The notes beneath the pieces are model-generated. The model saw only the letters and a list, made by a program, of their open reading frames with translations, did no database searches and was not told the DNA's origin. From Brevibacillus humidisoli (lineage in GTDB: Bacteria > Bacillota > Bacilli > Brevibacillales > Brevibacillaceae), in the NCBI RefSeq assembly GCF_020923435.1, contig NZ_CP087263.1, positions 2,933,970 to 2,997,969 on the forward strand: a DNA stretch of 64,000 nucleotides. Direction: 5' to 3'. Shown piece by piece: positions 14,764 to 43,869 of the stretch. Each line of letters opens with the position of its first letter. Within the stretch, counting starts at the first letter, position 1. The position numbers and the translations under genes are program-made.

Positions 14764-15023
14764 TAATTTCATACCCAAATGTTACGATTAGAAGTAGTAG
14801 AAGTGAAGAGATCTTCCAGAGAGCCGTTGGTTGGTGTGAAACGGCAGTATCGCTCATTTCGAACTCGTCTATGAACAGCTGCCCGACAACGTAGGGTAAG
14901 CCGGAATTCCACCGTTACAAGGATAGATGGTGATGGCCATCGAATGAGCTCATTTCAATTGAAATGAAGTAGAGTGGTACCGCGGGGAATAACCTCGTCT
15001 CTAGATAGAGACGAGGTTTTTTT
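14764..15023 (+). ncRNA. T-box leader of leuA, leucine-type specifier
   Basis: tRNA-sensing transcription attenuator. The conserved T-box AGAGTGGTACCGCGG lies at 14971-14985, directly before a 12-bp terminator stem (AACCTCGTCTCT / AGAGACGAGGTT, 14991-15018) with T7. In the upstream stem I region GAACTCGTC (14861-14869) places CTC (14864-14866) in the specifier position, which decodes leucine and fits the gene downstream. Uncharged tRNA-Leu would pair with the leader and prevent termination. Confidence 0.92.
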
Positions 15024-16761: not shown

Positions 16762-16900
16762 ACTTTGGGAGAGCGTTTGCCTTCCTATTCTCTACATTTT
16801 TTTATGACCCCCACATTTGGATTTACAGAGTGCCGTTGACAAGGAAAAGTCTAAGCATTAGAATGAGTTTGAATTCTGGCATTGTCTAAAAATTCATATC

Positions 16901-17085
16901 CGGAATAGGTGCATGATAAAACGCTTGCCGTTTTATCGGCTTAATTGGGAAGCCGGTTCGAATCCGGCACGGACCCGCCACTGTGTTGGGTATCAGCATG
17001 ATGTGCTGACAACTTTCAGGAAAACCACTGGGCTTGTGCCTGGGAAGGTCTGAAAGGGATGCCCTCAGTCAGGAGACCAGCCTAT
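16901..17085 (+). ncRNA. Cobalamin (B12) riboswitch
   Basis: Contains the conserved elements in order: AGGTGCATGATAAAACGC, GGGAAGCCGGTTCGAATCCGGC, the ACCCGCCACTGT core (16974-16984), CAGGAAAACCACTG, and the B12-box AGTCAGGAGACCAGCC (17067-17082). A hairpin terminator follows at 17215-17256, so regulation is probably by premature termination when adenosylcobalamin is bound. It controls the five-gene ABC transporter operon downstream. Confidence 0.95.
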
Positions 17086-17214
17086 TTTACGATCACTGTT
17101 GACCTACGGGATATTAGGGAAGGTGGTTGGTATGCTGATGACCATTTGGATGGACAAACACCTGATGTGAGTCCTCTCTCCATAACAGGTCTTGTTTCGC
17201 ATGTGGTTTGACCA

Positions 17215-31618: not shown

Positions 31619-31994
31619 AGTCAGGCGAATATAACATGCAACTATCTTTTTGCTTATGTCGTCGCCTTCACTCTTTTGAATGAAGCCGTTCCTTTTTTAG
31701 CGTGGAAAAACTCAGGGTGAGTCATATATAGCCAAAAAGCAACACTTTTGAAAACCAAAACAACGAAAGCCCTTCCTCTCTTTCATCCTTGCGGCTCCGA
31801 TGACCGCGCCAAGTGAATCGGAAAACAAAAGAGGATCGAATTCATTCAAAGAGACAGTTAATTATAGCACACCTTTATGGTGCTGTCTAATTTTTTCCGT
31901 TACCGATCACCCATCTCCTCACGAACGCCAGTATTAAAGCCAACTCATTCCCTCTCATGGAATGAAAGCCGCACGGTACATTTTTCGATTAGCA
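31619..31994. other. Intergenic stretch with no recognisable content
   Basis: AT-rich, no open frame with a ribosome site, no repeats noticed. Probably eroded DNA flanking two gene remnants. Confidence 0.3.
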
Positions 31995-40314: not shown

Positions 40315-41169
40315 CTAGCGATCTCTCCTCCTCTGTTTTTTAGGCCAACGATGTGGTTCAACATGCCTCAGCATCGCAAGGAATACGACGCCCCATTGAT
40401 CCTCGTTCAAAGAGCAAATCGGTGCATCGCGCTCCCTCCCGACATCCCTGAGCACATGTTTTAGTTGAGGAGGTGTAAATACACCGTTGAGCGCTTCATA
40501 AATCGGCAGCTCCGGACACCTCAATCCATATTCGGCCAATGCCACAAATCGACTGTGGTGATGGCTCGCCACGAGTGGACTGCTTCTCCTCCGCACACGC
40601 AATATGGCCGAGTCTACACGGGGCGGGGGAGAGAAATGGCTGCGGCCAACCACCCTGATCAACTTCATTTCAAACCAGATTCTCCATTTGAGAATGCGAG
40701 GGTTGATGATCGAATTGGCAGTGAAGCGCTTGGCCGCTCCATATTCGATCATCAGCACGGCTCGTTGAATGGCCGAAGACGGGGGATAAAGCAGTTTTTC
40801 CAGAATCGGCGTGGTGATGGAATAAGGAATACTGGCGACAACACTGAACGGATCTCTTGGCAGGCTTGTTTTGAGAATATCTCGTTCGATGACCTTGATA
40901 TTTCGGTACCCTTCCGCCTTTTTCCGGAGCACTTCTACAAAAACCGGATCGTACTCAACAGCCAGAACGTGTTTTGCTCGCTCCGCCAGGCTCAGCGTGA
41001 ACGCCCCTTTGCCAGCTCCAATTTCCAAAACGGTATCGGCAGACGTAATCCCCGCCAACTGGATCATCTCCTGGATCACCCGTTTGTTGTGCAGCAGATG
41101 CTGGCCGGAAAAATTAGGCCCTTCTAAGCCCTTTCGCGCCTTTCTATGACGTTTATCTTGTCTATTCAT
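40315..41169 (-). CDS. erm: Erm-type 23S rRNA adenine N6-methyltransferase
   Basis: 284 residues. Methylates A2058 of 23S rRNA using SAM, which blocks macrolide, lincosamide and streptogramin B binding. Motif I is EIGAGKGAFTLSLAE (residues 49-63), acidic VEYDP follows, and catalytic motif IV is SIPYSITTPIL (113-123). Most Erm proteins have Asn at the first position of motif IV, here Ser. Basic C-terminal tail (RWPKKQRRRDR) as in the ErmD-type clade. Strong RBS GGAGGAG. The 5' leader holds two short ORFs and an attenuator hairpin, so expression is probably drug-inducible. Confidence 0.88.
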   Translation of the reverse strand: MNRQDKRHRKARKGLEGPNFSGQHLLHNKRVIQEMIQLAGITSADTVLEIGAGKGAFTLSLAERAKHVLAVEYDPVFVEVLRKKAEGYRNIKVIERDILKTSLPRDPFSVVASIPYSITTPILEKLLYPPSSAIQRAVLMIEYGAAKRFTANSIINPRILKWRIWFEMKLIRVVGRSHFSPPPRVDSAILRVRRRSSPLVASHHHSRFVALAEYGLRCPELPIYEALNGVFTPPQLKHVLRDVGRERDAPICSLNEDQWGVVFLAMLRHVEPHRWPKKQRRRDR

Positions 41170-41196
41170 GTCGCTCCTCCGTTACGTAAAAAATGA

Positions 41197-41224
41197 AAAC
41201 GCACAGGCGCCTGCCTGTGCGTTT
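41197..41224 (-). terminator. Attenuator hairpin in the erm leader
   Basis: Perfect 12-bp stem AAACGCACAGGC / GCCTGTGCGTTT with a 4-base loop, followed on the minus strand by TTCATTTTTT, ending 28 bases before the erm start. Flanking CCGGTTACG / CGTAACGG can extend the pairing into the erm ribosome site. Confidence 0.75.
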
Positions 41225-41275
41225 CGTAACCGGAAGAGGAGATCAACAGAGTGCGGAAGAATCACTTGTTGCAGA

Positions 41276-41520: not shown

Positions 41521-41569
41521 GTACTTTTGCCCCGTATCTCGTTATCAAACGTAGACTTTTCGATAGCAC

Positions 41570-41753
41570 AAAAAAAGAGGGCAGACTGGGCCCTCCCGCT
41601 TATTCGCGTATAACGAAACAGGGTTACATGTAAATGGGCAGACCAATCCCGATTATTCTGCACACAGGCAGAGCCTTTGTACATATGAACATTTAGATGT
41701 ACAAAGTTCTCAATCGGGCTGAATGCACACGTAACCCTCCATCCTTTAAAAGT
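41570..41753 (-). ncRNA. Candidate free-standing structured RNA, about 184 nt
   Basis: A complete transcription unit without an ORF: promoter at 41760-41788 and a terminator at 41570-41596 (GAGGGC / GCCCTC, T7). Between them are three nested helices: 41620-41627 with 41731-41738 (8 bp), 41648-41654 with 41712-41718 (7 bp) and 41675-41684 with 41697-41706 (10 bp). They form a rod with a 12/20-nt internal bubble. Size and shape are compatible with a 6S-like or other regulatory RNA; I recognise no family sequence. It could also be a distal upstream part of erm regulation. Confidence 0.6.
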
Positions 41754-41759
41754 AACTTG

Positions 41760-41788
41760 ATTTTACCACAGACACCTTCTCTTTACAA
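41760..41788 (-). promoter_or_regulatory. Promoter of the candidate RNA
   Basis: On the minus strand TTGTAA (41788-41783), 17-base spacer, TAAAAT (41765-41760). Predicted start near 41753. Confidence 0.7.
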
Positions 41789-41840: not shown

Positions 41841-42479
41841 CTACAGCATCTTTTTCTGCTTGGCAATCGAAGCGGCTTCTTTGCTCGTTTTCGCCCCCAT
41901 TTTTTTCAGAATCCGGTTGATGTGATTTTTGATCGTCCGCTTGGCAATATGCAGCCGCTTCTCAATCTCTGATTGGGTATATCCATCGTGGATCAACTGC
42001 AGGATTTCTTTTTCAGCCGGAGAGAGCAGCTTCTGGTTCTCTTCCTGCTTCAAGCGCAAGAATTCATGGCGCAGTGCGGCAGCAGCTGTCGGGTGGATCG
42101 CCGATTGCTGATGGTAGGCGGCGCGGACGGCAGCCGGTATCTCTTTATAATCCAGCTTGCTAATGTAGTTGACCACTCCCGCCGAAAACGATTCGACGAT
42201 AATCTCCTCCCGGGTCAGTGAGGTGAGCATAATGATTTTGCAATCTGCCTGGAGATCGACCAATTGATGAGCAAGGTCAATTCCGTCCAGATTGTTTTCG
42301 GTCAGGTTGATATCCAATAAGACGATGTCCACCACCTGCTGTTGGAAGAGCTGCACGGCCTCTTCTCTCGTCTCGGCTGTGCCTGCTATCGTCAAGTCCG
42401 GTTCTTTGGACAAATAGTCTACCAATCCTTTTCGCCAGATGGCATCATCTTCTACGATCAGGATGCGGATCTTAGCCAC
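41841..42479 (-). CDS. LuxR/NarL-type response regulator
   Basis: 212 residues. Receiver domain with acidic pair EDD (10-12), phosphorylated Asp56 in VLLDIN and Lys in SKLDYKEIP. The C-terminal LuxR-type helix-turn-helix is LLSPAEKEILQLIHDGYTQSEIEKRLHIAKRTIKNHINRILKKM. Four bases downstream of the histidine kinase gene, so a co-expressed two-component pair. The regulated genes are unknown. Confidence 0.95.
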   Translation of the reverse strand: MAKIRILIVEDDAIWRKGLVDYLSKEPDLTIAGTAETREEAVQLFQQQVVDIVLLDINLTENNLDGIDLAHQLVDLQADCKIIMLTSLTREEIIVESFSAGVVNYISKLDYKEIPAAVRAAYHQQSAIHPTAAAALRHEFLRLKQEENQKLLSPAEKEILQLIHDGYTQSEIEKRLHIAKRTIKNHINRILKKMGAKTSKEAASIAKQKKML

Positions 42480-42483
42480 ACTA

Positions 42484-43869
42484 TCACTCCTCTCTGGGGC
42501 TCTTCTCTACTACTAGCTTGCTCGGAAAGTAGAGATAAACTGTCGTTCCCTGCTCCTTGACACTCTGAATCTCAAGCATCCCCTGATGCTTCTGCATCAC
42601 GTTATAGCAATAGGAAAGCCCCAGACCATAATTTTGCCCATTTTTTTTGGTCGTAAAGAACGGATCCAGGACGTTTCCCAGATTTTCCTTGGAGATGCCG
42701 ACACCGGTATCGGCTACCGATACGACCAGATGCTTCTTGGAACGGTATAGAGAAACGGTCAGCACGCCTCCCTGATGCATCGCCTCGATGGCGTTTTGAC
42801 ACAGATTGGCGATCACTTCACGCAGATGGACCGGGTCCCCTTTGATCCAGGCCTTCTCGTCCAGATGGGGGCGCACTTCGATCTGCTTTTTTTCGACGTA
42901 CGGCCGCACATCCTGCAGGACACGAGTGACCACTTCATGCAGAGGGACGATATCCTCTTTGAGTACAATGTCCTGGATCTGTCCCTGGATCCGGTTCACC
43001 ATGTTCATGATGTTTTGGGTGGACTGCAGCAGAACCGTCATATCTTCGTTCATCTCGTTCCGCTTCTCATCGGACGCGTAGGACTGAATCCGATCGGCAT
43101 ACAGGTTGATTTTGCCCAATTCGTTTTTGATCGTATGGTTGAGGATCGACGCTCCAGATGTCATCGCCCGCAGTGTACTGTCCAAACGTCGCTTTTCGAT
43201 CCTCAGCTTGACGCCAAGCAGTCCGTATTTGACGCTGATCGCCAAAAACAGGATAAACTGCAGCGAAACGATGACAATGTTGTAACGCCAAGCGTCGTAC
43301 TGATCGAAAATCCGCATCACATAAATAGAGATGAAGACGAACAACAGCGGAAGAATAGCCAGAACATTATTGATGAACCGGCTTTTCTTAACCATTGGGT
43401 CCCGTTCCGTCCAATACAGGTATATCAGCAACACACACGTACAGAGAAAATAGGGCGTAACCCACATGACCATGATCCAGTAATCGAATTGAAGCACCGG
43501 GTAAATCGGTGTAATCACCAGCATTAACAGCGGTGGCAGAAGTGCCGCATACTGGATGATCATCTTCACTCGATTCGGCATAAAGTCACAGGAATGTACG
43601 GCAAACATCAAAAAAGTGTAGGGAAGCCCGATCTGACAGATAAACGATGATACGCTGCTGACAAAGAGCATCCCCGGATTGAGCAGCGGATACTGTTGAA
43701 CATACCCCTGCAGCAGCGGATACAACTCTTCGTCGATAACAGCAGCAAAATAACCTAATCCTCCGATAAAGGCTGTTGCACTAGCCCAGCGGGTAGAAAG
43801 CCGTCTCGGGTCGGTGAAGAGCAGCAGCAGTCCAAAAGCCCAGATCGCTATCAAAACGGTTATGATCAC
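42484..43869 (-). CDS. Membrane sensor histidine kinase
   Basis: 461 residues. About seven membrane helices in the first 220 residues form the sensor, followed by a dimerisation helix with phospho-acceptor His245 in ILNHTIKNELGKI. The ATPase domain has LCQNAIEAM (N box), VADTGVGIS (G1), and GLGLSYCYNVMQKH (G2). The HTIKNE context resembles kinases of the HATPase/SpoOB-like group, although the partner is LuxR-type. No extracellular domain of size, so a membrane or lipid signal is plausible. Confidence 0.92.
   Translation of the reverse strand: MIITVLIAIWAFGLLLLFTDPRRLSTRWASATAFIGGLGYFAAVIDEELYPLLQGYVQQYPLLNPGMLFVSSVSSFICQIGLPYTFLMFAVHSCDFMPNRVKMIIQYAALLPPLLMLVITPIYPVLQFDYWIMVMWVTPYFLCTCVLLIYLYWTERDPMVKKSRFINNVLAILPLLFVFISIYVMRIFDQYDAWRYNIVIVSLQFILFLAISVKYGLLGVKLRIEKRRLDSTLRAMTSGASILNHTIKNELGKINLYADRIQSYASDEKRNEMNEDMTVLLQSTQNIMNMVNRIQGQIQDIVLKEDIVPLHEVVTRVLQDVRPYVEKKQIEVRPHLDEKAWIKGDPVHLREVIANLCQNAIEAMHQGGVLTVSLYRSKKHLVVSVADTGVGISKENLGNVLDPFFTTKKNGQNYGLGLSYCYNVMQKHQGMLEIQSVKEQGTTVYLYFPSKLVVEKSPREE

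Follow-up and report, generated by a model that had tools for sequence, protein, structure and literature searches.

A predicted ermD/ermK-type attenuator in the erm leader of Brevibacillus humidisoli and its RNA relatives upstream of other resistance genes

Introduction

What is the structured RNA encoded at positions 41570–41788 of the window, the 64,000-nucleotide stretch of Brevibacillus humidisoli contig NZ_CP087263.1 analysed here? An earlier note, made from the letters of the window, had described an orphan RNA of 6S-like size and shape, with a promoter and a terminator of its own and no convincing open reading frame. Comparison with related loci indicates that this RNA is the 5′ part of an erm leader of about 590 nt and is neither an orphan nor 6S-like. 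We propose, with a probability of roughly 0.88, that the element forms that 5′ part and is an attenuator of the ermD/ermK type, controlling transcription through the ribosome. The element in the window is new; its kind, the ermD/K-type attenuators, is already known.

Results

The leader and its gene comprise the following features, all on the minus strand.

41760–41788, minus: promoter, with −35 TTGTAA at 41788–41783, a 17-nt spacer and −10 TAAAAT at 41765–41760
41735–41740, minus: Shine-Dalgarno GGAGGG of the upstream open reading frame (uORF), from the sequence and the 18-leader alignment, within or adjoining the P0 5′ strand
41693–41728, minus: uORF, GTG...TAA, encoding MHSARLRTLYI (11 aa), Arg-Leu-Arg codons at 41716–41708
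41621–41737, minus: helix P0, GGGTTACGTG (41737–41728) with CATGTAACCC (41630–41621), from the minimum free energy (MFE) fold and permutations
41641–41721, minus: helix P1, in the Arg-Leu-Arg codon region, core 41718–41712 with 41654–41648 and beyond
41675–41706, minus: helix P2, CTTTGTACAT (41706–41697) with ATGTACAAAG (41684–41675)
41657–41672, minus: hairpin P3, TCTGC/GCAGA, loop CTGTGT
41569–41597, minus: terminator T2 (that of the earlier note), GGAGGGC-CCAGTCT-GCCCTCT and a T run
41196–41225, minus: terminator-like hairpin T3, 13 bp with a T-rich tail, just ahead of the erm ribosome-binding site
41176–41180, minus: erm Shine-Dalgarno GGAGG, from the sequence
40315–41169, minus: erm, a 284-aa 23S rRNA adenine methyltransferase (NF000499, 232.1 bits; cut-off 212)

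Much of the original description stands. The 185-nt minus strand folds with an MFE of −66.4 kcal/mol against a shuffle mean of −46.9 (z = −4.3; 1 of 200 shuffles equal), so that a structured RNA is upheld, and the terminator hairpin GGAGGGC/GCCCTCT is followed by its T run (41597–41575). The promoter TTGTAA-N17-TAAAAT is present at 41788–41760; by itself this motif occurs at chance level (2.1 expected, 2 found), and its position is supported because the relatives are enriched for promoters at the same place, with a match of 10 of 12 bases upstream of 46 of 108 homologous loci as compared with 45 of 1080 shuffles. The absence of a convincing open reading frame does not hold: an 11-codon uORF with a Shine-Dalgarno sequence lies at 41728–41693, and in the predicted fold helix P0 conceals its start region. 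Nor is the RNA an orphan, since the leader runs on toward erm, with a second, stronger hairpin at 41225–41196, and a homologous RNA precedes erm, in the same orientation, in a same-genus genome (G001) and at 17 further erm loci.

The uORF came to light on comparing the window with two other genomes: G001, in which a partial match precedes a same-strand erm gene by some 240 nt, and G003. A nucleotide search for copies returned one strong copy in the window's own genome and the partial match in G001 only; a plasmid search gave no match, and a peptide-pattern search for Erm in the genome contigs found none. By protein search, 24 of 398 Bacilli genomes carry erm, at 25 loci in all; we divided their leaders by inspection into 18 of type 1, which are long and window-like, and 7 of type 2, which are shorter and end in ...F(F)IRLR or similar. 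In the type 2 leaders (L008, L009, L025, L029, L031, L032 and L035) uORFs such as ...FFIRLR* are directly followed by a terminator-like hairpin; the examples in G005 and G006 are from the window's taxonomic family. The leader in G003 (L015 / L055) looks intact, and its erm frame begins only at query residue 77, so that erm appears truncated there. Homologues of the window uORF read MHSVRLRFPALNE in G001, MDYMRLRSLTLNK in G003 and MTHSMRLRFPTLNR upstream of Bacillus glycinifermentans erm, and a short uORF preceded by a Shine-Dalgarno sequence and containing a +X+ motif is found at all 25 erm loci.

Are the helices maintained by selection for pairing? We compared, for the 18 type 1 erm loci, the pairing energy of strands from the same locus with that of strands from different loci. 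For P0 the mean was −17.8 kcal/mol for own strands and −11.6 for non-own strands (0 of 20000 permutations equal), for P1 −13.3 and −11.5 (3 of 20000), and for P2 −11.3 and −7.3 (0 of 20000). These permutation tests ignore the relatedness of the loci, and 24 non-partner segment pairs serve as the control: among all 28 pairings of eight segments, only the predicted partners P0, P1, P2 and P3 with T3 reach 0 of 3000 permutations, whereas the best non-partner pair reaches 39 of 3000. Alignment of the 155-nt leaders with MAFFT and RNAalifold missed most helices because the uORF lengths differ, and the own versus non-own tests and a trimmed alignment were used instead. Doubly changed cells number 14 in the 18-row alignment as compared with 4.9 in shuffles. 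In the larger A3 alignment, which was fitted to the covariance model R1 described below, 95 distinct rows show double changes in 19 of 22 pairs, with 117 cells as compared with 31 after shuffling; P2 shows them in 8 of 8 pairs. Thus the check for compensating changes in relatives, which the earlier note had called for, finds the helices conserved through compensatory change.

The terminators are likewise placed consistently. T2 lies 117–134 nt past the RxR codon at 14 of the 18 type 1 loci and about 310 nt past it in L021 and L033, and our mechanical finder detected no T2 in L023 and L027. The same finder detected a T3 hairpin near erm at 13 of the 18. The window T3 begins 491 nt past the RxR codon, as compared with 239–418 nt in the 12 other loci with T3, and the T2–T3 stretch is therefore longer than in most relatives; the T-run of the window T3 is interrupted (TTTTCATTTTTT).

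The P3 strand at 41671–41661 (CTGCCTGTGTG) is complementary to the T3 5′ arm at 41221–41211 (CGCACAGGCAG). At the 18 loci the P3 strand pairs with its own pre-erm region at −17.4 kcal/mol and with non-own regions at −14.8 (0 of 20000 permutations), and at 16 of these loci, all but L023 and L027, the P3–T3 duplex is better than at least 95% of 300 shuffles. For example, the window pair CTGCCTGTGTG/CGCACAGGCAG is replaced by the compensated pairs CTGCTTGTG/CACAAGCAG in G001 and CTACCTGTGTG/CACACAGGTAG in L019. A putative antiterminator formed by the T1 3′ arm and the T2 5′ arm was rejected, as it showed no locus-specific pairing (4960 of 20000 permutations, 18 loci, in a test whose mechanical rule took the T3 of L027 as T2).

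How widely is this RNA distributed? We built a covariance model, R1, of P1, P2 and P3, and it matches 116 places in 102 of the 398 Bacilli genomes, a count that includes its 18 training loci; the E-values are rough because the calibration was short. The window, a training member, matches by construction (41636–41723, minus, 72 bits). The downstream gene was taken as the first large same-strand open reading frame, clustered by blastp and named from one representative per cluster by NCBIfam and Pfam. By this assignment the 116 hits precede HflX (27), Msr-type ABC-F (23), Mph(B)-like kinase (22), same-strand Erm (19, one of them the truncated gene of G003), Mef-like (9), RlmA(II)-like methyltransferase (6) and Lmr(B)-like (5) genes, one other MFS pump, which follows a second copy in the window genome, and two short-chain dehydrogenases; two were given no class (a short fragment and a contig end). 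The two short-chain dehydrogenase loci (L217 and L233) are weak R1 matches that carry no +X+ uORF and are possibly decayed or chance matches. Twenty R1 examples searched against Rfam 15 gave no match except a tRNA.

Further scans extend this distribution. In a phylum-wide scan at E ≤ 0.001, R1 matched 17 of 398 genomes, ten of which lie outside the class, and among 80 loci from a 17-base pattern scan R1 was present in 45 (46 matches). Examples of R1 include Brevibacillus laterosporus mph, Anoxybacillus rlmA and Rossellomorea hflX. The B. glycinifermentans erm leader matches R1 at 91.9 bits and the window over 57 nt at 81% identity (E 1e-10), and the licheniformis-group erm leader is thus itself a member of the family. 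The second copy in the window genome (G000:C1:1839516–1839602, plus strand; L170 201–287; 50.4 bits) has the uORF MAFFRVRLNLGAAN, precedes an MFS pump distantly resembling Tet(A/B/C), and shows a compensated change between its P3 strand and a downstream hairpin (TGCCTGCGT/CCGCAGGCT).

Of the 116 R1 loci, 108 were analysed as homologous RNAs, the other 8 being erm loci from the protein search. A +X+ uORF is in register in 92 of these 108, as compared with 586 of 5400 random positions, by a looser count that does not demand a Shine-Dalgarno sequence; the strict count is 71 of 108. A terminator-like hairpin follows 81 of 108, and none of 216 shuffles. Pairing of P3 with downstream sequence also extends beyond erm: across 70 non-redundant non-Erm loci 0 of 5000 permutations equal it, and by class the figures are 0 for Mph, 1 for ABC-F and 48 for HflX of 5000. 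Own strands gave no gain over non-own strands in the Mef, RlmA and Lmr-like classes (n = 7, 5 and 5; 3330, 4233 and 1121 of 5000). P3–T3 pairing is also missing from several ABC-F leaders belonging to family f4. RNA and gene class are linked, since the nearest RNA from another genus controls the same gene class for 44 of 95 RNAs as compared with a shuffled mean of 17. Yet leaders that are almost the same can stand before unrelated genes (mph and mef at 98% identity, ABC-F and rlmA at 95%), which suggests that the leader, the regulator itself, is occasionally exchanged between genes. By homology and predicted structure, many Gram-positive bacteria carry this RNA switch ahead of ribosome-drug resistance genes of at least six further kinds.

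Other regulators lie elsewhere in the window. A two-component pair sits just upstream of the leader (41841–43869, minus), consisting of a histidine kinase and a NarL/MadR-like regulator whose score does not reach the MadR cut-off; the window also holds an Rfam BsrC small RNA (31750–31836, plus, 69.8 bits), a T-box leader (14775–15005, plus) and a cobalamin riboswitch (16890–17099, plus).

Discussion

Which known system does the window leader resemble? The closest parallel is ermD/ermK (erm(J)) of Bacillus, which shares with it an Arg-Leu-Arg uORF, two terminators, a similar leader plan and erm downstream. The erm(K) leader has two adjacent Rho-independent terminators (PMC4335068), and ermK attenuation with two terminators is also described in PMC5418344. 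In the window we find an adjacent erm gene, a uORF with a Shine-Dalgarno sequence and Arg-Leu-Arg, two terminators, and homology to the licheniformis-group RNA. The uORF shares its stall motif with the ErmD/ErmK leader peptides, quoted as MTHSMRLRFPTLNQ (PMC4335068), and it shares with ErmDL a Ser two residues ahead of the first Arg. Ribosomes stall on ErmDL at Arg6-Leu7-Arg8 with erythromycin and telithromycin, and ErmDL Ser4 matters for erythromycin (PMC8298421). The window leader differs in its GTG start, its peptide tail TLYI in place of FPTLNQ, its longer T2–T3 gap, and the lack of a U tract right after the rod.

The wider family also has described counterparts. The motif uORFC-6-1 comprises 51 examples in Bacillales, mainly before hflX, with an Arg-Leu-Arg uORF (Brewer 2021, PMC8632094). 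Like the R1 family, 27 of whose 116 hits precede hflX, it has structure inside and after that uORF, and, to judge by the published description, the two are probably the same RNA; the R1 family adds six further gene classes. The Listeria rli80-hflXr leader resembles the window RNA by description, with a 14-aa RLR uORF, a premature terminator and ribosome-dependent induction established by experiment (PMC6310831), although it controls hflXr rather than erm. The mef(E)/mel attenuator has the leader peptide MTASMRLR, one terminator and macrolide induction, and its authors report that the mef(E) and erm(K) leaders are not homologous as RNAs (PMC4335068); in contrast, Bacilli mef-like genes with MTAS/MTHS-RLR leaders match R1. 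Finally, the B. subtilis tlrB/yxjB leader has a +X+ uORF upstream of rlmA(II) and two levels of repression (PMC6851288), but it differs in its C-terminal RYR and its leader plan, and is nearer to the seven type 2 erm leaders. In a literature search for which most subscription papers were beyond reach, we found none joining these gene classes under one RNA and no description of the P3–T3 pairing, although comparable alternative pairings may appear in the papers on ermK. Both the breadth of the family and the P3–T3 pairing look new.

What we demonstrate directly is the anatomy of the leader, the conservation and covariation of that anatomy, and its linkage to erm. Stalling at Arg-Leu-Arg and attenuation are known from published work on relatives (PMC8298421, PMC4335068), and by analogy with them we infer every step of the following mechanism in this organism, the disabling of T2 and T3 included. 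Without drug, the uORF would be translated to its end, the rod of P0, P1, P2 and P3 would form, and RNA polymerase would halt at T2 or else at T3. A ribosome whose exit tunnel holds a macrolide or ketolide would stall at Arg-Leu-Arg with Leu in the P site, covering the P1 5′ strand and part of P2, and P0 too if its footprint reaches the Shine-Dalgarno sequence. The freed 3′ strands could then compete for the T2 5′ arm, while the P3 loop and strand could seize the T3 5′ arm. With T2 and T3 disabled, polymerase would read into erm, and Erm would methylate 23S rRNA.

Does simple folding bear this out? At equilibrium, a ribosome block of −14 to +16 leaves T2 intact (0.98 both free and stalled) and T3 formed. 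A block of −25 to +16 lowers T2 to 0.14 in the window, and among 16 loci only the window, L011, L024 and L033 pass from above 0.9 to below 0.7 under it. The models are thus equivocal, backing T2 antitermination only where the ribosome's footprint extends over the Shine-Dalgarno sequence as well. For the window, P3 alone has an energy of −5.9 kcal/mol, T3 −21.7 and the duplex of P3 with the T3 arm −19.8; T3 is favoured at equilibrium, so that P3 could act only during transcription, before the T3 3′ arm exists. The predicted P3–T3 pairing could either help or hinder expression. More tentatively, and at somewhat less than even odds, we suggest that the uORF, the three-way-junction rod and the tandem terminators form a portable cassette, a sensor of drugs that block the ribosome, which has passed between resistance genes of at least seven unrelated classes. 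In this view the strand conserved best, that in P3, is an antiterminator and takes hold of the 5′ arm of the terminator nearest the gene, which in the window lies 451 nt downstream. If so, capture of the distant T3 arm by P3 would let one stalled ribosome license passage hundreds of nucleotides away.

Could the RNA act in another way? It is unlikely that control is mainly translational, as in ermC, with the leader hiding the erm start site and stalling unmasking it. T3 does adjoin the erm Shine-Dalgarno sequence, the P0 3′ strand weakly prefers its own pre-erm region (39 of 3000 permutations), and vmlR and tlrB use both levels (PMC9226507, PMC6851288), but two T-tract hairpins at conserved places point to transcription. 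We see a slim chance that the RNA is an independent small RNA, 6S-like or trans-regulatory, which ends at T2 while erm is transcribed from another promoter. Its own promoter, strong terminator and compact fold would suit such a molecule, and a terminated leader could act in trans, a short rli80 transcript being present in Listeria (PMC6310831). Yet the window RNA contains a uORF with a stall motif, the minus strand between T2 and erm has no promoter-like match, and erm follows on the same strand after 19 of 116 R1 hits, another resistance gene following most of the others. The likeness to 6S RNA was not borne out: no Rfam 15 family, 6S included, matches the window RNA at its gathering score, and a covariance-model search at E ≤ 10 returned chance matches only, none of them to 6S. 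Indeed, the comparative evidence places the RNA within the erm leader, the outcome that the earlier note had set against its own reading.

The chance is slimmer still that the leader is a ligand-binding riboswitch that senses a drug or metabolite directly. A three-way junction with a core (GGCTCTGC...AGAGTAAACGGGA) conserved in many species would be in keeping with one, but pairing with T3 explains the conservation of the P3 strand, and the uORF codons together with pairing explain that of the P1 and P2 strands. Moreover, the related rli80 loses induction in cells expressing ErmC (PMC6310831), which points to ribosomes.

On the attenuator reading, a supposed orphan RNA becomes a predicted control through which drugs would induce an intrinsic erm gene. 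One conserved leader ties together erm, mph, hflX, msr-type ABC-F, mef, rlmA(II)-like and lmrB-like genes, and its automatic annotation could allow the prediction of inducible resistance to which plain gene lists are blind. How a single stalled ribosome could control two terminators finds a concrete answer, open to testing, in the covarying P3–T3 pairing. It is this broad, exchangeable family with its covarying long-range pairing that deserves specialist attention.
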